Below are positions 2,880 through 25,125 of a stretch of DNA of 42,685 nt, one piece after another. The notes beneath the pieces were generated by a model. The model worked only from the letters and a program-made list of their open reading frames with translations. It had not been told where the DNA came from and did no database searches. Each line of letters starts with the position of its first letter. Position 1 is the stretch's first letter. The position numbers and the translations under genes are program-made. This DNA comes from Minisyncoccota bacterium (GTDB taxonomy: Bacteria; Patescibacteriota; Minisyncoccia; Phycocordibacterales; UBA9973), in NCBI GenBank assembly GCA_017991395.1, contig JAGOQQ010000003.1:66400-109084 (forward strand), read 5' to 3'.

Positions 2880-2900
2880 GCTTTGCAAAATGTTCCCTTA
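2880..2900 (-). repeat. Dispersed 21-nt motif copy overlapping a stop codon
   Basis: On the minus strand this reads TAAGGGAACATTTTGCAAAG followed by C, a variant of the motif at 5482 and 38240. The first three bases are the stop codon of the upstream 817-residue gene, and the motif fills about half of the 46-nt gap to the next gene. Confidence 0.45.
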
Positions 2901-5351
2901 TTCATCTGAAAACATAAACTTCTTTGTATCTCTGTTGAATCTCGCAAACCGTGTGGTACCAGAAGGTGTACTAAATGACATCACGCCTATATTCTCCTCA
3001 AGTCCAATATATATTCCGCTATACGTCCCACTTGAATCGAGTCCAAACATATTGAATGAGTCCCCTGTTTGTGTAATCCAAAACAATTTAAAACTATCAA
3101 CTGCAATATCGAACTCTGGATGCACTTCTACACCTCGTGCCACAAGATCCCAATGCCATTCCGGCTGATTGAGTTCACGCAAATCTACAGAATCGCCTTC
3201 TTCCTTAATAATTTCTTCGTTTAAAACAATGTTTCCGGAATCTTCATCTCTCTTTTCTGGTTCTTGTGATTTCTCACTGACATTTGTTTCTGTGTCGGTC
3301 GCTTTTTCATCCGAGTCCTTACCTGTTAAAAAATCTATAACACTTTCAAGTGGCTTGATTTCATTCTGTTCAGAAGTTTCTGTTGTATTTGTTTCTTCTG
3401 TTTTATTTATTTCTGTTGTGTTTGTTACTTCTATTGTGTTTGTTTCTGTTGTATTTTCCGTCATTACACTACTTGGAATGTCTTCTTTTGAAACACTCTC
3501 CTCAATATTTTCAACTTCTTCAGCAACTGCAATTGAATCTCCCAATACTTCTTCTTTCGTTTCCGTAGTTTCTTCACTGGCCGAATCAGTATTTTCTATT
3601 ATCGTATTTTCTTCCAACTGTTCCGTATTTTGTGGTAATGGTCCAATCAGAGGATCATACTCAGGAACTGTTGATGCATCAATAATCTGAAGACTTGTAT
3701 CGCCGGATTTTATTATTTCATCACTTCCTACTGCACTATCCACTGTGGCCAAAAGACTCGGTGGAACAAACGCGTACCAAATCTGATATTCTCCATCTGG
3801 TTTCAAAATTTTTATCACGCGAACATTTTCGTACCGTATATCGTTTAATACTTTGTCAGTGAGAAAATCTGGCTGTGGGAGCGGATCAGGATTGACCCCT
3901 TCATACTCTACAGACACCCATACAGAATCGAGATATGTTTCTGGAAATGAGTCGATTGTTGGCAAACTCTCAATTGCAATTTGCACTTTTGACAACTTTT
4001 CCCATGAATCAACGCTTGAAAACGGAATATCAAACTCAACATTTTTCCAATTGTTTCGCTTTACAACGCCAAGCTCTTCCCAGTTTGTACCGTCGAGTGT
4101 GTACATGACCTTAAAAAGATCGTCACGTGCAGTTTCGTCGAGTGATACGATTCCATTTGACTCAAGATCTTGGTTTTCTGATTGAGTATTTTCTTCTGAC
4201 GACTCTGCTTCGTTTTTAGATTCTGAAGAGCTTTCGGTTTGCAGTACTCCACTTTCTTCTGATGGCACTTCAGCTTCAACTGGTTCTGTGATTTCTTCGA
4301 GTGGAGCCTCGGCAAGAGCTTCTGGTGTTTCTTTAATCAAGATCTCCGCTGTTTCCTCAGTAGTATTTTCCTCTTTTACTGGTTCGCTTACTTCTTCCTG
4401 TGTAGGTTCACTTTGTTGTTCTGATTGTGGTGCTGGACTTTCTGATTCTTGCGCAAACACTTTTGTGAAAAATCTTTCAATGAATGCCCCTTCGCCACCC
4501 GATGAACTTTCTCCACCACCAGATGAATCAGATCCACCAGAATCACTCGAACCAGAATCTGATGAACCATCCGATGTTCCACTCTCGCTACTTGAATCAT
4601 CCGAACTTGACGGAGCACTTGATTCTTCATTTGTTGAATCGTTTTCTTGTGGCATTTCACCAGACGGTAGATCTGATGATCCATCTTCGTTTGAAGGAAT
4701 ACTTGAATCATCGGTGTTTCCGCCATCTGTCGATGAGTCTGTTTGTGGACCAGAAGTATCATCTAAGTTTTCATCACTTTCTGAACTTGCTGAATCAGCG
4801 TCTTTGTTTTCTTCTGCTTGTGTTTGAACATTTCGTCCTTCGTCTAGTTTTTCGTTGATTATTTTTTCACCTTTATCGTATGATCCATCATCCACAAACC
4901 ATGAAAATCGCACAGTAAATTTGCGCGGAACTGAATCCTCTGGAACTTCACCACTAAAATCTCCGCAAAACATTTGTGCCGCACGATTTTTCAAAAATGC
5001 AGCATTATCTCGAGTAAAATCAGATCCTTGTGCGTCTGATGCAACACTAGGCTGTCCTTCGGTGTTTGAGGGATTTTCCCATCCTCCAAGACATGTTTCT
5101 GGGTAAAAATTTACAATACTTGCCTTTCCTTTTATTGCAACCGAAAAAATAATGAGTACGACAATCAAAATACTTACAGGTGCAGCAAGCTTCCTGTTTT
5201 TTTTGAGAAAATCACGGATGCGGGTGATATTGATTTCAATCTTAAAATCGTCTTTTTTGCGCAGCGAAAGAACGTTCTCGTCTGGAACATTCAAAGGCAC
5301 ACGACTCCGGGTCGTATTTTTTTTGCCGACTAAAAAACGTGGCAATTTCAT
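2898..5351 (-). CDS. Membrane-anchored acidic low-complexity surface protein (817 aa)
   Basis: The first ~55 residues are basic and predicted cytoplasmic, residues about 56-74 are one transmembrane helix, and the rest is predicted outside. Two conserved-looking stretches, around residues 143-165 (FTVRFSWFVDDGS) and 415-500 (FKVMYTLDGTNWEELG to VWVSVEYEG), look like the two halves of one beta-sandwich domain. They are separated by ~250 residues of Ser/Asp/Glu/Gly-rich sequence. A second Glu/Thr-rich stretch follows at about 575-720, then a compact C-terminal domain rich in aromatic and Gly residues. No family is recognised. The start is fixed by an extended -10 box 7 nt upstream of the ATG. 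The gene probably heads a two-gene surface-protein operon with the gene at 1-2851. Confidence 0.9.
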   Translation of the reverse strand: MKLPRFLVGKKNTTRSRVPLNVPDENVLSLRKKDDFKIEINITRIRDFLKKNRKLAAPVSILIVVLIIFSVAIKGKASIVNFYPETCLGGWENPSNTEGQPSVASDAQGSDFTRDNAAFLKNRAAQMFCGDFSGEVPEDSVPRKFTVRFSWFVDDGSYDKGEKIINEKLDEGRNVQTQAEENKDADSASSESDENLDDTSGPQTDSSTDGGNTDDSSIPSNEDGSSDLPSGEMPQENDSTNEESSAPSSSDDSSSESGTSDGSSDSGSSDSGGSDSSGGGESSSGGEGAFIERFFTKVFAQESESPAPQSEQQSEPTQEEVSEPVKEENTTEETAEILIKETPEALAEAPLEEITEPVEAEVPSEESGVLQTESSSESKNEAESSEENTQSENQDLESNGIVSLDETARDDLFKVMYTLDGTNWEELGVVKRNNWKNVEFDIPFSSVDSWEKLSKVQIAIESLPTIDSFPETYLDSVWVSVEYEGVNPDPLPQPDFLTDKVLNDIRYENVRVIKILKPDGEYQIWYAFVPPSLLATVDSAVGSDEIIKSGDTSLQIIDASTVPEYDPLIGPLPQNTEQLEENTIIENTDSASEETTETKEEVLGDSIAVAEEVENIEESVSKEDIPSSVMTENTTETNTIEVTNTTEINKTEETNTTETSEQNEIKPLESVIDFLTGKDSDEKATDTETNVSEKSQEPEKRDEDSGNIVLNEEIIKEEGDSVDLRELNQPEWHWDLVARGVEVHPEFDIAVDSFKLFWITQTGDSFNMFGLDSSGTYSGIYIGLEENIGVMSFSTPSGTTRFARFNRDTKKFMFSDE

Positions 5352-5923: not shown

Positions 5924-8389
5924 TTACCCGTGGCATTTCTTAAACTTCTTTCCACTTCCGCATGGACATGGATCATTTCTTCCAACTTTTTCAAACTCTG
6001 ATTTTTCCAATTGCACTCCACCAGTTTCAGTATCGGCATGTATGAGTTCTACTTTTTCTTGCATGGGTGTATCAACTGCACTTGATTCCTTTGCTTGGGT
6101 TGTTTGAATTGTTTCAATCAATGCAAGTACTTGAAATTTCATTGCAGTTTCCATTTCTTTAAATAGTCGTGAACCTTCTTTGCGATACTCCACAAGCGGC
6201 TCACGCTGACCATACGCGCGAAGATTTACCGAAGACCGAGTGTATTCCATTGTTTCAATATGATCAGTCCACAGCGCATCGGTGACGTACAAAATAATTC
6301 TACGCACCACACTCCAAAATTCCAGACCAACTTCCATTTCTTTTTTGACTACTTGTGCTTTTGCTTCGTCAGACTCGGCAATAGTGCTGAGAGTATATTC
6401 TTTTATTTCAGCTTCAGGCGAAAGAAGCATTGTGTGTCGTCGTCCATAGACAATTTTTCTCTGCTGATTGAGAATATCATCATATTCAAGTGTATGTTTT
6501 CGTGAGTCAAAATTGAATCCTTCGATTTTCATCTGCGCACTTTCAAGCGACCTTGAAATAAGTCTGTGTTCAATTGCTTCATCTTCGGGCACATTGAGGC
6601 GCGCCATGATATTTTTCATGCTATCGCCAAAAATTCTCATCAAATCGTCTTCAAGTGACACGAAAAACTGCGTTTCTCCTGGATCGCCTTGTCTTCCTGA
6701 TCGTCCTCGTAGCTGATTGTCGATACGTCGCGCTTCATGTCGCTCTGTTCCAAGCACAAAAAGTCCTCCGAGTGATTTAACCTCTTCGTATTCTTCTTTG
6801 GTTGCATCAACACCTCCAAGTTTGATGTCGATTCCACGACCCGCCATGTTTGTCGCGATTACCACACTTTTCTTTTTTCCGGCATGCGCAATAATTTCTC
6901 CTTCACGTTCGTGATTTTTGGCATTCAACACTTGGTGTGGAATACCGGACGCAGTGAGATATGCCGAAAGAAGCTCGTTTTTCTCGATAGATACAGTACC
7001 AATAAGAACTGGCTGACCTTTGTCGTACAATTCTTTTACTTTTTTTGTAATTGCTTGAAGTTTTCCTTTCTCTGTACGGAAAATCTGATCATTTTTATCA
7101 AGTCGAGCAACAGGTCGATGAGTAGGAACACTTATCACATCGAGATTGTACACTTTTCGAAATTCTTCTTCTGATGTCTTACCAGTTCCTGTCATTCCAG
7201 AAAGTTTTTTGTAAAATCTGAAGTAATTTTGGTACGTAATAGATGCAATTGCGCGCGTTTCTTGTTCAATTTTTACATTTTCTTTTGCTTCAACTGCTTG
7301 ATGAAGTCCTTGATTCCATCTTCGTCCTGGTTGCATACGTCCAGTAAACGGATCAACAATCACCACTTCATTGTCTTTGACCACATAATCTTTGTCACGA
7401 ATAAAGAGTGCGCGTGCTCGTACGGCAGTTTCAAGATGATGCACATATTTGATTCCTTTTTCAGTATAGATATTGTCTACCCCCAAAAGTTTTTCGGCTT
7501 TGGTGATTCCTTGGTCAGTGAGAGAAATTGCTTTGAGTTTTTCATCTACCGCATAATCCTCGACTGGCTTCAATTGTGAGGCAATAGTTGCAAATTGCTG
7601 ATACATTTTTTCAGAATCTCCTGCTCCTCCTGCAATAATGAGCGGAGTTCGCGCTTCGTCAATCAAAATTGAGTCTACTTCATCCACAATTGCATAGTGA
7701 TATCCACGCGCAACAAGACCATCAGTACGAGTCGCGAGATTGTCTCGAAGATAATCAAATCCAAATTCGTTGTTTGTACCATACGTAATGTCCGCATTGT
7801 ATGCGTCTTTTCGTGTACATGGTTTTAGAAATTCGTATTCAATCTTGTATGTGCCCACTTCATCACGCTCTTTGTCTTTCTCGGAATGAGATGAATCGTA
7901 GAGATACGAAATATTTTGAGAATTGATAACACCAACAGAAAGTCCAAGAAATGCATAGACTTGTCCCATGAGTGTTGCATCACGACGTGAAAGATAGTCG
8001 TTTACGGTAACGATATGCACACCTTTTCCTTCGAGTGCATTTAAGTAAGCAGGAAGTGTGGCAACAAGAGTTTTTCCTTCACCTGTTCGCATTTCGGCAA
8101 TCTTGTGAGAATGGAGCACCATACCTCCAATCATCTGCACATCATAGTGTCGTTCAGAAAGAGTTCGGAGTCCCGCTTCGCGCACAAGCGCAAATGCATA
8201 CGCCAAAATATCATCAAGTGATTCACCTTGTGAAAGTCTCTCTTTAAGTTCCTTTGTTTTCTTAGGAAAATCTTCATCTTTGAGCTTTTGAATTTCTGGT
8301 TCAAATGACGCGATTTCCAGCACCTTTTTATTCAATGATTTGACAAATGCCTGATTTCCATCTCCAAAGATTTTGGTCAATATATTCAT
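5924..8389 (-). CDS. secA: Preprotein translocase ATPase SecA
   Basis: SecA is the ATPase that drives unfolded preproteins through SecYEG. The sequence shows the Walker A region (MRTGEGKTL), a VDEVDSILIDEARTPLI Walker B/DEAD region, a GRxWNQGLHQAVEAKE preprotein cross-linking segment, MAGRGIDIKLGG and QLRGRSGRQGDPG helicase motifs. It ends in a zinc-binding SEC-C tail (CPCGSGKKFKKCHG). About 821 residues is a normal, slightly compact length. I start it at the second of two in-frame ATGs (8389): the first ATG (8401) overlaps the -10 hexamer TATAAT, so it would not be in the transcript. SecG is encoded separately at 27158. Confidence 0.97.
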   Translation of the reverse strand: MNILTKIFGDGNQAFVKSLNKKVLEIASFEPEIQKLKDEDFPKKTKELKERLSQGESLDDILAYAFALVREAGLRTLSERHYDVQMIGGMVLHSHKIAEMRTGEGKTLVATLPAYLNALEGKGVHIVTVNDYLSRRDATLMGQVYAFLGLSVGVINSQNISYLYDSSHSEKDKERDEVGTYKIEYEFLKPCTRKDAYNADITYGTNNEFGFDYLRDNLATRTDGLVARGYHYAIVDEVDSILIDEARTPLIIAGGAGDSEKMYQQFATIASQLKPVEDYAVDEKLKAISLTDQGITKAEKLLGVDNIYTEKGIKYVHHLETAVRARALFIRDKDYVVKDNEVVIVDPFTGRMQPGRRWNQGLHQAVEAKENVKIEQETRAIASITYQNYFRFYKKLSGMTGTGKTSEEEFRKVYNLDVISVPTHRPVARLDKNDQIFRTEKGKLQAITKKVKELYDKGQPVLIGTVSIEKNELLSAYLTASGIPHQVLNAKNHEREGEIIAHAGKKKSVVIATNMAGRGIDIKLGGVDATKEEYEEVKSLGGLFVLGTERHEARRIDNQLRGRSGRQGDPGETQFFVSLEDDLMRIFGDSMKNIMARLNVPEDEAIEHRLISRSLESAQMKIEGFNFDSRKHTLEYDDILNQQRKIVYGRRHTMLLSPEAEIKEYTLSTIAESDEAKAQVVKKEMEVGLEFWSVVRRIILYVTDALWTDHIETMEYTRSSVNLRAYGQREPLVEYRKEGSRLFKEMETAMKFQVLALIETIQTTQAKESSAVDTPMQEKVELIHADTETGGVQLEKSEFEKVGRNDPCPCGSGKKFKKCHG

Positions 8390-8399
8390 ACGTCTGGTC

Positions 8400-8405
8400 A
8401 TTATA
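8400..8405 (-). promoter_or_regulatory. Extended -10 box of secA overlapping an upstream ATG
   Basis: TGA-TATAAT on the minus strand. The last two bases of the hexamer are the first two of an in-frame ATG, and the next in-frame ATG follows 10 nt after the hexamer. This predicts a leader of only about 3-4 nt and decides the start codon. Confidence 0.65.
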
Positions 8406-8508: not shown

Positions 8509-8583
8509 CTATGATCGCTTCTTCTTCTTTGCTGCTGACTTCTTTTTTGCTACCTTCTTCTTCGCTTTCTTTTTTGCTGCCAT
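8509..8583 (-). CDS. 24-residue Lys/Ala-rich basic mini-protein
   Basis: The frame ATG-GCA-GCA-AAA-AAG up to TAG encodes 24 residues, 13 of them Lys plus one Arg, with Ala, Val and Ser making up most of the rest (MAAKKKAKKKVAKKKS then AAKKKKRS). It resembles the Lys/Ala repeats of histone H1-like bacterial tails, so nucleic-acid binding is a reasonable inference but is not shown. A terminator directly after the stop supports an independent gene, and a candidate -10 box CATATT ends 8 nt before the ATG. A longer overlapping frame on the same strand is less convincing because its composition is random-looking. It could also be a low-complexity remnant of a longer gene. Confidence 0.55.
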   Translation of the reverse strand: MAAKKKAKKKVAKKKSAAKKKKRS

Positions 8584-8599
8584 ATAATTTGAATATGTT

Positions 8600-8861
8600 A
8601 TTTGCTAAAGACATGCAGTAGTGCGACCTCTTACAAAAAATTTTTAATAAATATTTTTTGTAATTATTTTTTATTACTGCATTACATAATTTATTATCGT
8701 ACAAAAAAAAATTTGTTACAATAGATTTTTAAAAATAATTGTGGATAACTTTTTTATTTTTTAAAAAAAATATTTTTGAAAATTAAAATAAAATTTATAA
8801 TTTTATTTTAATTTGTATTATTTATTATTTTTTTATAATTAATATTTGTTTATATTATAAA
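8600..8861. other. Extremely AT-rich intergenic stretch with one DnaA-box match
   Basis: About 260 nt composed almost only of A and T runs, without a supported gene. It contains TGTGGATAA at 8740-8748, a perfect match to the consensus DnaA box (TTATCCACA on the other strand). Only one perfect box is visible and no dnaA or dnaN gene is in the window, so an origin is possible but weakly supported. Part of it may simply be the region between convergent effects of two terminators. Confidence 0.35.
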
Positions 8862-8992
8862 AAATAAAACCACCGACTATGTAGTCAGTGGTTTTATTTT
8901 TATCTGCATGTGAAGCCAGCGGGTGCATAACTCCAACATACATACCTATGTGAGCGCAGTCGCTGGCTACAAATGTAGACAACTTTCTGCAC
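8862..8992 (-). ncRNA. Small RNA 1, own promoter and terminator
   Basis: An independent ~130-nt transcript is predicted on the minus strand, starting near 8992 and ending at the hairpin ATAAAACCAC/GTGGTTTTAT with a T tract (8862-8903). Within it GCCAGCG pairs with CGCTGGC. Above that stem, GCUC pairs with GAGU and leaves an ~18-nt apical loop containing GGUAUGUAUGUUG. That loop is perfectly complementary over 13 nt to a linker in small RNA 2 (12222-12234). I see no motifs of SRP RNA, tmRNA or a reliable 6S RNA signature. It lies just after the stop codon of the 1006-residue protein gene; a long 3' UTR origin is an alternative, but the promoter is strong. Confidence 0.6.
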
Positions 8993-8998
8993 ACGGTA

Positions 8999-9027
8999 AG
9001 TATATATAATTATCATCACAAAATCAA
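8999..9027 (-). promoter_or_regulatory. Promoter of small RNA 1
   Basis: TTGATT (9022-9027), a 17-nt spacer and TATACT (8999-9004) on the minus strand, followed by the structured ~130-nt segment and a terminator. Confidence 0.65.
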
Positions 9028-9075
9028 CACATTTTCACTCTAAGATACATTTTAGCATTACATTGTAAAGCTATT

Positions 9076-12000
9076 TTATTGTATGAAGTCTTTGTGCACA
9101 TACCCAGTTTTTCCATCATCAAACAATACTTTTACCCACACTGACTTTGCATCACTTTCAACAACTGTCCCTGCTGCACCCTTTCGGACTTTGTATAAGA
9201 TACTTCCATTAGGAGTTTTTCTGATGTTCAAAATACTTGCAGTAGTTTTGATTTTATTTGACGAGACAGGTGTATCAGCGGTTGAGGTGTCACCTTCTAG
9301 GTATACATTTGAAACCCATCCATTTTCTGATTCTGACAATTTCACATTTGCCCATTCAACATTATTCACAATTTTCTTCTCGACAATTTCCACCTGTTGA
9401 CTCTTGTTGAGAATTTTTAATATTTTTCCACCAGGAATCTGTCTAAGTCTTAATCCAAGCACTTTTACTCGCGCAGTATTTTTCTTCGTAACATTATCGA
9501 CAGGATTTTGTATAGGCAAAGTATTGATTGGTGCTTGTATCACCCGTGTGGTTGAGGTCGCAACACTTCCAGACCGGCTTGATGAAGGAACAGAAGTGAC
9601 TATTGTTGATTCAAAGACACTCACTGCAGTATTCAATGTTGTAATTGCGGTGTTGACCACTGATTGGGCTTGGGTATTTGTAATCGCTGAAGCCACATTG
9701 ATTGCAGACAGAAGAGTTGCTTTTGCGCCAACAGCGTATTGACCAAGTGATGTGCCTTCGACAGCTCCATCATAGAGTGCTTGTGCGGTTGCAATTGCCG
9801 AGGTCAAACTTGTAAGATCAGAATTTACGGTGACTGCATGTGTGCCCGTCGTCGTTCCGCCAGGACCCGTGCATTCGATTGAGTACGTAGTTGAAGAAGT
9901 TGGTGAAATACTTTGCACGCCACTTGAACTTGTACTCACTGTCCAGTTTGCACTACAGGTAGTGGTATTTGTGGCGCTCCAGTTTAAATTTGTTGATTCA
10001 CCTTCGAGAAGCGTCGAATCATCAGCGGTAAATGTAATTACTGGTGCGGGATCAATCTCTGTCATAGAAAACGCACTCAGAATTGCTTTACCGTCAGCAG
10101 TATCAAACTGGGTGACGTGAATATCAATCAAACCTCCTGCCGTAGGAGCAATATCTTCAAGTACGACGAAGTCGTGTGTGTTTTGAAATGCTTGAAGTGT
10201 GGCACTGTCAGTTGTGAGTCCTACAGCTTGGTATGTAGCCTTCGTCTTGGAATCATATCTATCATCTCTTCCAAGCGTCGATCCCATCATTTTGAAATTA
10301 TATACTTTTGCAGTATTGAGACCTGAAAGTCGAAACGTTCCTGTCCCACCATTCGTCGTGAGCAATACACCTTGCTTAATGTAAGTATCTGGATACACAC
10401 CAGTGTTGTTGTTGGTGATTGAACCTTTGCTGTTAGTTGAACCATCAAATTTTGAATTAAAGTTTGATTGAACTTTCCATGTGATCGAACTTGATGTGCT
10501 AGTCGTGTCAACCAATGTAATCGCTGCATCAGCAGAAGAAATCTTACTATGCTTGTTCCAAAGCCCTCCAATACTAGAACTCGTACCGTTGGCATTTTGA
10601 CCGACAGCTACTTGAAAAGTGCGATCGGGTGTTGGAATCGCATCAATTCTATTTTGAAATGCCGTCTTTGTCGCACCTGCGTCGAGAAAATCCACCCATG
10701 TTTGTGCCGTTGACACATCACCTGAAAGCAGTGTTTGTTCTGCTGCTTCAACTTTATCTTCGACTTTCGAATTCAAATCTGTAAGATAATATTCTCCCAT
10801 TTCAAGGTTTATCAAACCAGTTGATGTATTTTCTGTTGTGTACGTAAAATCACCACTTCCATATGAAATTGATGAAATCACCGCATCAGCATCAACTTCG
10901 AGTGAGAGTGAACGTCTTCGGATGTCGGTTGGAACATCGGTGACATCAAGGGTAATTGTGAGTGTTGTGCCATTTTGAGAAGTACTCACATCTGTTCCTT
11001 TAACTGTTTCAAGGTATTGAAAAACTTCTTCTTGTCCCGCAACCCACACAGCGTCAGTTCCGCCCGCACCATACGTGTCGTACGTGTAGTCAATGAGCTC
11101 TTTCCATTTTGGCCAATACATATTTGCACCACTCATCGATCCTGCTGTTCCACATGTTGTTGTACCGCACCATACTCGGTGTGTAAAAATATGTCCCCAT
11201 TTATTGACTCCACCTGTACTTGAACTTGCAAGCAAATCAATAAGCGTTGCATATGAAGACACATTTGTTGCGTCAGGTGTAGAACTCGGACTATTCACCA
11301 AATTTCTATACATAAAATAATCCGTCAATCCATCTGGGTCTGAAATTAGATCATTGACATCAACGGGAGCACTTCCGGTCGGAATAGTGTACGGTCCTCC
11401 TGTAAAATTAAACACTGTTGCCTGACTTAAAATAGCTTTGATGTAGGGAATCGCAAGTGCATCATCTATATAGTTTTGCTCGCCCGACGGAAGTGTCAAC
11501 ATTGTCGTATCATAAGTGATTCCGATTTTATCTTTTACGACGTCGTTTAGATTTGTGATTTCATATTCATAATCTATTGTACTCGAGCCGTGTGGTGCAG
11601 GATAATTTATAACTGTATTCGAAGGACTTGGTGTCGCTATTCCCTGCCATCCTTGATTCAACAAATCCCATCCACCATCATAGGCTTTTCTCATTTCTCC
11701 ATACGAAAAACTTGATGTCGTATCGTAGTGAGTATCAACAAAAGATGTGTTAACCAAATTCAATGCAAAACTCCCATTGAATGCAACGAGATTTCCTGCA
11801 CCGTCAGTCGAATACCTTCCTGGATAGGTCGCAAGATCAGCATCCGCTGTTCCGCCATTGAAATACTTGAAGGCATTTCGATATCCTTCGATATATCCAT
11901 CATCAAATGTCCAACTATAGGCAAAATCTTTTCCATACTTAAGGGGCAACTTTGTTACCGTATACGTGGTTGGTGCAGTTGCAAAATTGACAGTGATTGT

Positions 12001-12096
12001 CTTTATGGTTTCTGATGCTCTTGCGTTGGTATACAGCGTAGCAAAAGAAAATAGTGCTAAGAAAGTTATTTGTAAAAATGTGGGCTTGTGGTGCAT
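9076..12096 (-). CDS. Exported multidomain protein with FDDG motif, FIVAR-like and two SH3 domains
   Basis: 1006 residues with a signal peptide (about 1-28, ending near ARASE). Residues 63-68 (TFDDGY) resemble motif 1 of NodB-type polysaccharide deacetylases, and the following ~350 residues could be a divergent version of that fold; I cannot place the later catalytic motifs with confidence. A beta-rich segment and an Ig-like segment (ITFTADDSTLLEGESTNLNW) follow, then an Ala/Thr-rich helical FIVAR-like repeat around 760-835. Two bacterial SH3 domains end the protein, at about 875-934 (LRLRQIPGGKILKIL, WANVKL, GWVSNVYLE) and 949-1006 (LNIRKTPNGSILYKV, GYVHKDFI). A cell-wall or glycan role is inferred from the SH3/FIVAR ends. 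The gene is bracketed by two small-RNA genes. Confidence 0.85.
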   Translation of the reverse strand: MHHKPTFLQITFLALFSFATLYTNARASETIKTITVNFATAPTTYTVTKLPLKYGKDFAYSWTFDDGYIEGYRNAFKYFNGGTADADLATYPGRYSTDGAGNLVAFNGSFALNLVNTSFVDTHYDTTSSFSYGEMRKAYDGGWDLLNQGWQGIATPSPSNTVINYPAPHGSSTIDYEYEITNLNDVVKDKIGITYDTTMLTLPSGEQNYIDDALAIPYIKAILSQATVFNFTGGPYTIPTGSAPVDVNDLISDPDGLTDYFMYRNLVNSPSSTPDATNVSSYATLIDLLASSSTGGVNKWGHIFTHRVWCGTTTCGTAGSMSGANMYWPKWKELIDYTYDTYGAGGTDAVWVAGQEEVFQYLETVKGTDVSTSQNGTTLTITLDVTDVPTDIRRRSLSLEVDADAVISSISYGSGDFTYTTENTSTGLINLEMGEYYLTDLNSKVEDKVEAAEQTLLSGDVSTAQTWVDFLDAGATKTAFQNRIDAIPTPDRTFQVAVGQNANGTSSSIGGLWNKHSKISSADAAITLVDTTSTSSSITWKVQSNFNSKFDGSTNSKGSITNNNTGVYPDTYIKQGVLLTTNGGTGTFRLSGLNTAKVYNFKMMGSTLGRDDRYDSKTKATYQAVGLTTDSATLQAFQNTHDFVVLEDIAPTAGGLIDIHVTQFDTADGKAILSAFSMTEIDPAPVITFTADDSTLLEGESTNLNWSATNTTTCSANWTVSTSSSGVQSISPTSSTTYSIECTGPGGTTTGTHAVTVNSDLTSLTSAIATAQALYDGAVEGTSLGQYAVGAKATLLSAINVASAITNTQAQSVVNTAITTLNTAVSVFESTIVTSVPSSSRSGSVATSTTRVIQAPINTLPIQNPVDNVTKKNTARVKVLGLRLRQIPGGKILKILNKSQQVEIVEKKIVNNVEWANVKLSESENGWVSNVYLEGDTSTADTPVSSNKIKTTASILNIRKTPNGSILYKVRKGAAGTVVESDAKSVWVKVLFDDGKTGYVHKDFIQ

Positions 12097-12124
12097 GATT
12101 TATTAAAAATACTTCATTAAAATA

Positions 12125-12150
12125 AAAATAAAACAACTGCGAAGTTGTAA
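12125..12150 (-). promoter_or_regulatory. Short hairpin plus T tract in the leader region of the 1006-aa gene
   Basis: ACAACT-tcgc-AGTTGT is followed on the minus strand by a T-rich run, just before the ATG at 12096. An extended -10 like TGC-TACAAT lies ~25 nt upstream of the hairpin. It could be an attenuator or the terminator of a very short transcript; the stem is only 6 bp. Confidence 0.35.
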
Positions 12151-12182
12151 TTTATATATTGTGACTCTGATATTGTAGCACA

Positions 12183-12266
12183 AAAAAACAAAACACCCCG
12201 GCCGAAGCCGAGGTGTGTTGCGGTATGTATGTTGTTTCTAATAGACAAGCTACGCGAAACACTCAC
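12183..12266 (-). ncRNA. Small RNA 2 (or attenuated leader), with promoter and UUCG-loop terminator
   Basis: An ~84-nt transcript is predicted on the minus strand. It has a 6-bp hairpin UGUUUC/GAAACA, then a single-stranded linker with CAACAUACAUACC, then a terminator stem ACACCUCGGC-UUCG-GCCGGGGUGU with a long U tract (12183-12219). The linker is perfectly complementary over 13 nt to the apical loop of small RNA 1. Because the 1006-residue gene begins 87 nt downstream, it could also be a transcription-attenuating leader of that gene. Confidence 0.6.
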
Positions 12267-12272
12267 GAAAAG

Positions 12273-12301
12273 AGTATAGCAGAGTCGAGTCTATTTGTCA
12301 A
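12273..12301 (-). promoter_or_regulatory. Promoter of small RNA 2
   Basis: TTGACA (12296-12301), 17-nt spacer and extended -10 TGC-TATACT (hexamer 12273-12278) on the minus strand; this is among the best promoter matches in the window. Confidence 0.75.
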
Positions 12302-14547: not shown

Positions 14548-16071
14548 CTACTTCACAAAAAACTGCATACTTCGTGTACCAATATTTGCAATATACACAC
14601 CTGACACAAGATCAACATTATACGATCCATTCGATTGAATATCACTCGAATGCAAACATCTACCTTGTAGATCATACACACTCAATGTTTCGTTTCCGAA
14701 ACCACTGAAATGAATTGCTGAATTTTCTCCATCAAAAAATATTTTTGTAGAGTTTTTTTCATTTTCATCAACAGAAGTCGTCCCTGGCATTGTGAGTGTG
14801 CACATATCATCCATCTGACCGAGCTGGTTAAATATATATGCTTTGACTACATATGTAGTGCTTGGCATAAGTCCGCTCATTATCATCATGGTGTATGTTC
14901 CTCCAAGCGCTGATGGTAGTCCCGAATAAATTTGAGAAAATGCAATCGCATTGTTCAAATCATTTGGAAGAAACGCAAGCAGATACATGGAATTATTTCC
15001 GTATCCACCAGTACTGTAGAGAATGTCTACCATTCCTGTTTGTCCGACACTATAACAATTTGTTATAGATATTTCATACAAACCCGAAGCGGTCGAAAAT
15101 CCAGTCGACCCGTACACCGTAGTCCATGCTGGATTGCTCGAAATAATCTGAACATTCACGGTCACACTGTCGAGCGGACCACATACAGTTACAAGAAAAT
15201 TCAAACTTGAAGTTCCTGCACTATATGCCTGCGGTGGAAGAGAATACGTTTGTCCACCACACACAATCTGTACAAACACCACACCGCCGATTGAATCAGC
15301 AGAGAGTGTCACTGTGACAACTCCACCTTGATCGGTAATGTTTGAAACACTTATCGTATCGAAGGACGGAGGATTTGCCAGCAATGCCGGTGTCGTCACC
15401 ACAGCATGTAGTGACGTATCGAGGAACAATGGAAACATTTGATTGAATCCAATTGCGCGATACCACCGCGTGGTAGCTGGAGATTGAAACACGGTAAGTG
15501 TATCATTCCCAAGATCGTTTGTTCCCACGACTTGATGTGTCGTCAGAAAATTCCATTGTCCACCACTGGTTGAATCCTGCCATGTCATAAACACAGTTCC
15601 ACCGCCATTTCGATTAAATGGGACGGTGAGTAATGCAGAATACGAAGTGGTATTTGAAACAACAATTGTCGGTCCAACATCCAGAGGACTCGGCGGACTC
15701 GAAAGTGTCGAGTCAACAATGACAATCGAATCAATCAAGGTTCCTTGTATAAACACAGTATTAATCGTGTATACAGAACCTGCCATGAGTCCTCCCATTC
15801 CCACCGTATCAATCACGGCACCCGAAATACTTATTGGTGAGGAGACACTTGGTGGCGTAATGCCATTGTAGAAAGTAGTTTGCGCAATCGCACTAGTACC
15901 GGCACCGAAATGCCGAACTATTGCGAGAGAATCATACCCGCGATGAATCACCGTCACGCTATCAAGTGAGAGTGTTTCGAGATTCTTCAGCGGGACAAAC
16001 AGACTTTGCCCGAAGACTGCCGTGTGTAGACACACTACGGCAAAGAGAATTAGAGTTTTTTTCATTTTCAA
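14548..16071 (-). CDS. Exported Fn3-like protein with T9SS type A-like C-terminal sorting domain
   Basis: 507 residues. A signal peptide (MKMKKTLILFAVVCLHTAVFGQ region in two parts) ends in FGQ, a cleavage context common in Bacteroidota. The body is a string of beta-rich, Fn3-like segments. The last ~80 residues (ETLSVYDLQGRCLHSS, GSYNVDLVSGVYIANIG, SMQFFVK) match the pattern of the type A sorting domain recognised by the type IX secretion system of Bacteroidota. No T9SS component is in the window, and T9SS needs an outer membrane, which this lineage is thought to lack. Unlike most neighbours, it has a leader of about 15 nt downstream of a TTGACA/TAAAAT promoter. Horizontal acquisition is a plausible inference. 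Confidence 0.8.
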   Translation of the reverse strand: MKMKKTLILFAVVCLHTAVFGQSLFVPLKNLETLSLDSVTVIHRGYDSLAIVRHFGAGTSAIAQTTFYNGITPPSVSSPISISGAVIDTVGMGGLMAGSVYTINTVFIQGTLIDSIVIVDSTLSSPPSPLDVGPTIVVSNTTSYSALLTVPFNRNGGGTVFMTWQDSTSGGQWNFLTTHQVVGTNDLGNDTLTVFQSPATTRWYRAIGFNQMFPLFLDTSLHAVVTTPALLANPPSFDTISVSNITDQGGVVTVTLSADSIGGVVFVQIVCGGQTYSLPPQAYSAGTSSLNFLVTVCGPLDSVTVNVQIISSNPAWTTVYGSTGFSTASGLYEISITNCYSVGQTGMVDILYSTGGYGNNSMYLLAFLPNDLNNAIAFSQIYSGLPSALGGTYTMMIMSGLMPSTTYVVKAYIFNQLGQMDDMCTLTMPGTTSVDENEKNSTKIFFDGENSAIHFSGFGNETLSVYDLQGRCLHSSDIQSNGSYNVDLVSGVYIANIGTRSMQFFVK

Positions 16072-23355: not shown

Positions 23356-23842
23356 TGATTGTATGTCTTTCCATACAGTCAGATAGTTTATAGTCTCTAT
23401 CAAACTTTCCTGTGCTCAATTGAGGCACAGGAAATCGACGCCGTAAGTCATTTGCCATAAACATGGACAAATGGACAATTTCAAATTGAATTATTCCACG
23501 ACCAGCTTCCGCTAGCCGTGCCTTGTTACGACTTATTCCCTGTCACCGAGCTTACCGTAGGCCCCTCTTATGAGGAGATTTCGGGTACTCCCGGCTCCCT
23601 TGAATTGACGGGCGGTGAGTACAAGACTTGAGAACATATTCACCGCGGTTTAGCTGACCCGCGATTACTAGCAATTCCAGCTTCAAGGAGTCGAGTTGCA
23701 GACTCCTATCCGAACTGAGGCTATTTTTATAAGGATTTGCTCAGAGTCGCCTCGTCGCTTCCTGTTGTAATAGTCATTGTATTATGTGTGTGGCCCAAGG
23801 TGTCAAAGGGACATGCTGACCTGGCGTCATCCTCTCCTTCCT

Positions 23843-23950
23843 CCCAGAACGGAACTCGCAAAACGTAAATCGTAAAGCGTGGAGCGTTAAATGCAAATGC
23901 ATCTGACGTTCTACGTTCTACGTTCTACGGCTTACGTTCTCTGTTCTGGG
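23843..23950 (-). repeat. Palindromic expansion of 16S helix 39
   Basis: CCCAGAAC pairs with GTTCTGGG and encloses about 92 nt that are absent from the canonical helix 39 hairpin. The insert holds four tandem-like ACGTAGA/ACGTTCT units on one side and partly complementary ACG-spaced units on the other, so it forms a long imperfect hairpin. Confidence 0.75.
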
Positions 23951-24175
23951 CGGTCTCGTGTGACACGTATAACACACGACGAGGGTTGCGTTCGTTACCC
24001 CACTTAAGGGAACAATTCAAACCACGAACTGACGACGGCCATGCATCACCTGCTTACTAGTCTTGCGAGGGCTCCGGTTTCTCGGAGCTTTCACGTAAGT
24101 TTCAAACCTTGGTAAGGTTCTTCGTTTATCGTCGAATTAAACCACATAATCCACTGCTTGTGCAAGTCCCCGTCT

Positions 24176-24207
<32 letters not shown>

Positions 24208-24570
24208 TCCCAGGCGGATATCTTAACGCGTTAGCTACGCCTCTCAGAGGGTCGATACTCCGAAAGACTAGATATCATCGTTTAGGGCGTGGACTACTGG
24301 GGTATCTAATCCCATTCGCTACCCACGCTTTCGTGCTTGAGTGTCAGATGTGTGCCAGTATATTGCCTTCGCATTTGGTGTTCCCCTAAATATCAACGGA
24401 TTTCACCCCTACACTTAGAGTTCCATATACCTCTCACACTCTCTAGCTTTGCCGTTTCCCCCGCGGTTTCCAAGTTAAGCTCGGAGATTTAACGGGAGAC
24501 TAACAATGCCACCTACGCACCCTTTACGCCCAATAATTCCGGATAACGCTCGGGGCTCTCGTATTACCGC

Positions 24571-24592
24571 TCCTGCTGGCACGAGATTAGGA
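24571..24592 (-). other. 530-loop pseudoknot with compensatory change in 16S rRNA
   Basis: In RNA sense UCC (24590-24592) stands at the place of E. coli 505-507 GGC, and GGA (24571-24573) at the place of 524-526 GCC, with the normal 16 nt between them. Pairing is conserved although both sides differ from the near-universal sequence. The 515F primer site has two mismatches as a result. Confidence 0.8.
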
Positions 24593-24707
24593 GCCCCTTA
24601 TTCATGAGGTACCGTCAATAAACTTCTTCCCTCATAAAAGATCTTTACGTCCCAAAGGACTTCATCAATCACGCGGCGTCGCTCCATCAGACTTTCGTCC
24701 ATTGTGG

Positions 24708-24738
<31 letters not shown>

Positions 24739-25125
24739 ATGGGCCGTGTCTCAGTCCCATCGGTGGGGGTCAGGCTCTCACCTCCCCTAGACGTCATAGC
24801 CTTGGTAGTCCTTTACACTACCAACTAGCTGATATCCCGCAGGCCGTTCCTTGAGCGAAAAACTTTACTCCGGAGAGTCTATCGTGTATTAGCTCACCTT
24901 TCGATGAGTTGTTCACGACTCAAGGGTACGTACCCACGTGTTACTACCTCGTTCGCCACTAACTTTTAAGAGTATTCATAATCATTCCATATTGCTACTT
25001 CATAATCACTTCAACAATAAAAGTCCGTTCGACTTGCATGCCTTATCCACGCCGCCAGCGTTCATCCTGAGCTAGGATCAAACTCTACTTAAAAAACTCG
25101 TGAGGACCGAAGTCCGCCACAAGCC

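Follow-up and report, generated by a model that had tools for sequence, protein, structure and literature searches.

Two structured RNA genes near secA

We analyzed a 42,685-nt stretch of DNA, hereafter the window (contig JAGOQQ010000003.1 of assembly GCA_017991395.1, positions 66,400 to 109,084), from the 763-kb genome of a Minisyncoccota bacterium whose class we take to be Paceibacteria, with a focus on two small RNA genes, RNA1 and RNA2. On the minus strand, the order is RNA2, an open reading frame (ORF) of 1006 residues, RNA1, an ORF of 24 residues and secA (Table 1). In this Nomurabacteria-like genome, RNA1 and RNA2 are, judged by their sequences and those of their relatives, conserved genes for structured RNAs. 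A sequence-only reading of the window had given each RNA its own promoter and terminator, and promoter-like sites and terminators were found there, although the RNA1 promoter alone is weak evidence because a scan gave 24 such sites against 14.6 expected. Across relatives, a -10-like site (at least 5/6 positions) lies at most 20 nt upstream of RNA1 in 87/126 loci, compared with 18/126 in a control window.

Both RNAs fold better than their shuffled counterparts (z = -8.5 for RNA1 and -4.3 for RNA2). In an alignment of 53 sequences, both sides have changed in 21 of the 25 pairs of the RNA1 hairpin, with a covariation score of 0.679 versus 0.234 for shuffled and at most 0.156 for slid alignments. 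The 16S rRNA was the only match in the window at the Rfam 15 gathering score, both RNAs giving weak matches below the cut-off, and a scan of the loci of 8 relatives yielded one RNase P and nothing more. A small ORF seen by eye within RNA1 of this genome (GGAG..AUG) was discarded, its AUG being absent from most relatives' sequences.

Table 1. Features of the RNA1-RNA2 locus (window coordinates)
Feature	Position	Strand	Basis or remark
RNA1 gene	8862..8991	minus	Promoter-like site, covarying hairpin, terminator repeat; inferred transcript ends
RNA1 promoter, TTGATT-17-TATACT	8999..9027	minus	9/12 consensus positions
RNA1 conserved hairpin	8895..8981	minus	Covariation across relatives
RNA1 segment A, GCGCUCAC	8950..8957	minus	Predicted cis partner, GGAG; proposed trans partner, RNA2 5' end
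RNA1 segment B, GGUAUGUAUGUUG	8934..8946	minus	Complementary to RNA2 12222-12234; covarying contact
RNA1 GGAG, 3' side of apical stem	8931..8934	minus	Predicted to be released upon pairing
RNA1 terminator repeat	8860..8901	minus	Inverted repeat I3; symmetrical, could serve both strands
RNA2 gene	12182..12266	minus	Promoter, terminator, fold, relatives; inferred transcript ends
RNA2 promoter, TTGACA-17-TATACT	12273..12301	minus	11/12 consensus positions; TG precedes the -10
RNA2 5' tail, segment A', GUGAGUGU	12259..12266	minus	Conserved at the inferred 5' end; complements segment A
RNA2 small hairpin	12233..12261	minus	Predicted fold; lies between both pairing segments
RNA2 linker, segment B', CAACAUACAUACC	12222..12234	minus	Complements RNA1 segment B; covarying
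RNA2 terminator hairpin	12193..12216	minus	Sequence scan
1006-residue ORF	9076..12096	minus	C-terminal SH3_3 domain (PF08239); between the RNA genes, not thought part of the system
24-residue Lys/Ala-rich ORF	8509..8583	minus	Separates RNA1 from secA; position shared by many relatives
secA	5924..8401	minus	PF07517, PF01043; conserved neighbor

The RNA1 loop and the RNA2 linker coevolve

The starting point was a claim that the two RNAs share 13 nt of perfect complementarity. Both segments are present on the minus strand: RNA1 carries GGTATGTATGTTG (8934-8946) and RNA2 its reverse complement (12222-12234). Such a match had been called improbable by chance, and a complementary run of at least 13 nt indeed arose in only 1 of 5000 dinucleotide shuffles. 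Nor is the 13-mer a common genomic repeat, since the exact sequence occurs in the 763-kb genome at these two sites only, with 3 one-mismatch sites elsewhere against 2 matches for a control pattern. Its placement in an apical loop of RNA1 holds for the first six bases in free RNA1 and fails for the next five, which are paired in the apical stem with an unpaired probability of 0.01-0.18. Similarly, the RNA2 segment lies in a linker as proposed, except for its first two bases, which are paired in a predicted hairpin. Within RNA1 of this genome, the CUC of segment A is itself predicted to pair in cis with GAG (probability 0.93-0.99).

We then considered RNA1 loci from 126 of the 129 genomes with a match (G291, G389 and G416 being left out) and searched upstream of RNA1 for a promoter, a GTGAG-like motif and a terminator, making no use of complementarity. 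This blind search recovered an RNA2 in 76/126 loci, usually just upstream of RNA1, and the internal hairpin is present in 76/76 of these candidates. All 76 are kept in the statistics, including those of G169, G311 and perhaps G396, which look wrong. The RNA2 of the present genome, which a private 1006-residue gene separates from RNA1, was missed by the filter, probably because a perfect terminator stem was demanded, and is absent from the statistics.

The RNA2 linker is a much better match for the RNA1 loop in the same genome than for the loops of other families, with a mean loop-linker energy of -12.2 within genomes versus -6.0 between families. When each of the 37 families is represented by one genome, the mean is -10.5 to -10.7 versus -5.9 to -6.2 when permuted (z ~ -13), and three separate draws each gave 0/20,000 permutations as low as the observed mean; within the family of the present genome (n = 27 genomes), 0/20,000 permutations were as good. 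The longest Watson-Crick run has a median of 9 nt (range 2-13, 76 pairs). In the genus g16, RNA2 is unlinked from RNA1 and was found by model elsewhere in the genome in 9/10 genomes, where loop-linker energies are -14.4 to -18.2. The complementary segments are thus kept through compensatory change, which shows that this helix, helix B, is under selection and supports the contact between two separate RNA genes that the sequence-only reading had supposed.

A proposed second helix and possible strand exchange

GUGAGUG stands at the inferred transcription start of RNA2, and CACUCAC is present in RNA1. Both segments are nearly invariant, so only the exceptions are informative for the helix that they could form, helix A. 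In one family (f54), all three RNA2-bearing genomes have CCCAC and GGGG in RNA1 and GUGGG in RNA2. In two others (f56 and f27), CUCAUA is matched by UAUGAG, and in a fourth (f40) CGCUCAC is matched by GUGAGCG; a double change in a fifth (f4) keeps one helix A pair, with the neighboring pair broken. Matched changes are thus seen for the putative helix A in several families. The CUC of RNA1 has two possible partners, the GAG of RNA1 or the GAG of RNA2, and the joint change of all three segments in f54 is evidence for strand exchange. The net predicted energy, a summed estimate, is -11.6 kcal/mol for the pair of the present genome and below -5 in 63/76, which speaks for the pairing.

We propose that RNA1 and RNA2 form a dedicated trans-acting non-coding RNA pair in which RNA2 opens the tip of RNA1 and a heterodimer results, a reading that the comparisons make likely. 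Free RNA1 would be a long hairpin with its tip closed by CUC:GAG, and RNA2 would consist of a 5' tail (GUGAGUG), a small hairpin, a linker and the terminator. In the complex, the RNA1 loop (B) would be bound by the linker (B') and the RNA1 CUCAC (A) by the tail (A'), displacing the GGAG of RNA1 itself. Because the segments are ordered A-B in RNA1 and A'-hairpin-B' in RNA2, a four-way junction could hold both helices at once; strand exchange and this junction are our inference, and the segment order is compatible with the junction but does not prove it. The output may be a regulatory switch, through release or masking of RNA1 segments or through joint turnover, and we place such a switch ahead of particle assembly. 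That the two segments covary one-to-one speaks for a dedicated partner rather than a many-target seed.

Several observations weigh against this proposal. Because the RNA2 filter demanded a GTGAG-like motif, helix A was bound to look conserved to some extent. Helix A has one broken pair in G097, G418 and G439, is partly broken in G062 and poor in G103, and the 5-nt RNA2 tail is predicted to be mostly unpaired in only 31/76. Helix B carries one mismatch in five g16 genomes (G056, G038, G027, G053 and G050), and pairs are weak in G080 and G267 as well as in G169, G311 and G396, whose candidates may be wrong. The covariance model R1 gave no RNA1 match in 34/100 relatives, a search directed by the loop gave no convincing RNA2 near RNA1 in 20/126 loci, and the model search found no RNA2 in one g16 genome (G046).

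Alternative explanations

The reading that comes closest, tentative in our view, is that RNA1 and RNA2 are both required as subunits of a single RNA or RNA-protein particle, their pairing serving assembly and not regulation. The one-to-one covariation and the absence of further exact copies of the segment from the genome would suit a particle, as would the invariant CUCAC, GGAG and GUGAG elements next to a freely varying helix, the co-occurrence of the two RNAs and their retention across a class. Set against this, the position of RNA1 as a murB leader in many families fits regulation too, neither RNA matches Rfam, and the protein partner is hypothetical.

We find it rather doubtful that RNA2 is a sponge or antagonist titrating RNA1 away from mRNA targets. 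Bacterial precedents exist, such as RosA-RoxS (PMC8216469), and a trans-acting pair with a median 9-nt run and a contact kept when unlinked would fit. However, a loop that seeds pairing with many mRNAs should stay constant, whereas the RNA1 loop varies with RNA2, and the genome has no additional exact 13-mer site. The sponge-type or mutually regulating pair put forward by the sequence-only reading is a candidate reading; a contact that varies freely between genomes together with its partner fits a one-to-one partner better than a many-target sponge.

Equally doubtful is a role of RNA1 as a cis-regulatory leader, at first for murB, with RNA2 regulating it in trans. A murB start codon lies at most 60 nt after RNA1 in 13/36 loci from the rest of the order and 14/50 from the rest of the class, often 0-20 nt past the RNA1 hairpin, which gives a leader arrangement in 27/86 loci outside the family of the present genome. 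Within that family the count is 0/40, RNA1 mostly has its own terminator and sits near secA, and yet the contact is kept; a role at murB, if there was one originally, is therefore not required to keep the pair. A terminator at most 70 nt after RNA1 is found in 32/40 loci of this family, 11/36 of the rest of the order and 13/50 of the rest of the class.

The supposed control of the 1006-residue gene found no support: this ORF is a singleton cluster with no relative among the ORFs of 66 fetched loci, and in most relatives the RNAs are neighbors without it, leading us to reject it as a target. Since the ORF is a singleton and the murB placement is not universal, the pair is independent of both genes.

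The lineage seems to lack a signal recognition particle (SRP): SRP RNA (RF00169) was found in 0/100 genomes (controls, 11/14 named genomes) and the Ffh M domain in 0/31 (controls, 14/14 named genomes). These same negatives lead us to reject RNA1 as the SRP RNA. That RNA1 and RNA2 are two pieces of a Paceibacteria housekeeping RNA machine near secA, replacing or aiding protein targeting in cells without SRP, is a speculative idea that we consider improbable. Finally, a chance match or shared repeat, for which nothing speaks beyond simple sequence (TATGTATG), is refuted by the covariation in 37 families, besides the 1/5000 shuffles and the absence of another exact copy, and has next to no standing.

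Relation to known RNA pairs

RosA and RoxS of Bacillus subtilis (PMC8216469) resemble RNA1 and RNA2 in being small RNAs that base-pair together; RosA has two or more small-RNA partners and affects central metabolism, whereas the contact described here covaries one-to-one across a class. The present pair shares with sponge pairs that its RNAs are trans-encoded and mutually complementary. It also shares with extended kissing complexes of the CopA-CopT type a segment order that allows two helices and a junction. In CopA-CopT of plasmid R1, a hairpin-loop contact progresses to a four-way junction and one partner is an mRNA leader (PMC10798244), the junction being named in titles of Kolb et al. 2000 cited there. 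CopA is antisense to its own target, whereas here the loci differ and the junction is deduced from segment order. RNA1 and RNA2 do not form a cis-antisense pair, being encoded on the same strand, 3.3 kb apart here and unlinked in g16. A further likeness is to a small RNA with a dedicated RNA antagonist, a pair reportedly named CJnc190-CJnc180. That antagonist is cis-encoded (PMC8687705), while RNA2 is encoded in trans.

A literature search covering open-access papers, with few subscription papers and no bioRxiv preprints, returned no such RNAs in these bacteria. We know of no characterized small RNA system in them. A covarying two-gene pair across a class makes the RNA-RNA contact directly testable, compensatory mutants existing in nature. 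It also prompts one to ask how RNAs pair in cells in which no Hfq was detected (0/60 genomes), an absence that is ordinary because the controls were positive in only 5/14 named genomes.

Distribution and neighboring genes

RNA1 was found by blastn in 19/100 relatives (G019 and G041 resting on short or doubtful matches), by model R1 in 66/100, counting the present genome, and by a wider model in 77/383 genomes of the class. A phylum sample gave 11/380 genomes, all 11 within the class. Strand-reversed RNA1 matches are a product of the palindromic hairpin. The counts are lower bounds, since an RNA1-like hairpin of G032, located 182 nt after the RNA2 start and with a partly complementary loop (-10.3 kcal/mol), escaped the model.

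The 50 loci that the blind search left without RNA2 comprise the present genome, ten of g16, 18 in which the loop-directed search found an RNA2-like gene (two on the other strand), the 20 without, and G168, which fell outside that search as its RNA1 tip was unparsed. The loop-directed search is biased by design and was sorted by eye; inspection by eye reveals an RNA2 on the opposite strand in two of the 20 (G066 and G090). RNA2 model matches at E <=1e-5 come from 24 genomes, all 24 of which have RNA1. Matches at E 0.1 (75/100 genomes) are mostly chance, several being without RNA2 features, and were not used as presence calls. Among named-genome loci, 7/54 RNA1 matches have a linked RNA2 candidate, one of them doubtful; these loci add little, as 4 of the 7 probably come from genomes already sampled.

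Downstream of RNA1 on the same strand, secA is found in 33/40 loci of the family, 33/36 from other families of the order and 23/50 from the rest of the class, counts based on flanks of 3-4 kb, where short contigs account for some of the misses; three genomes (G035, G048 and G057) have secA upstream on the opposite strand. The 24-residue ORF, possibly a nucleic-acid-binding peptide or a leader peptide, is followed here by a terminator just before secA and occupies the same place across the order.

The 16S rRNA at 23484-25093 (minus) ends with ..GUGGAAUAAUUCAAUUUGAAA and lacks the CCUCC anti-Shine-Dalgarno sequence, as do all 41 complete 16S 3'-end matches listed for the family (some genomes being represented twice). 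Shine-Dalgarno mimicry, in which a released RNA1 GGAG would bind this sequence, is rejected for the family because the 16S 3' end has no CCUCC in the present genome or in the relatives inspected.

Two further minus-strand ORFs of the window, at 2898-5351 (817 residues) and 14548-16071 (507 residues), had no Pfam match. By eye, the unlinked RNA2 seems to lie beside the RNase P RNA gene in three g16 loci (L099, L106 and L107) and in L029. A record titled Burkholderiales (JAMPXW010000002.1, L159) carries a Nomurabacteria RNA1 and 16S, and its title looks wrong.

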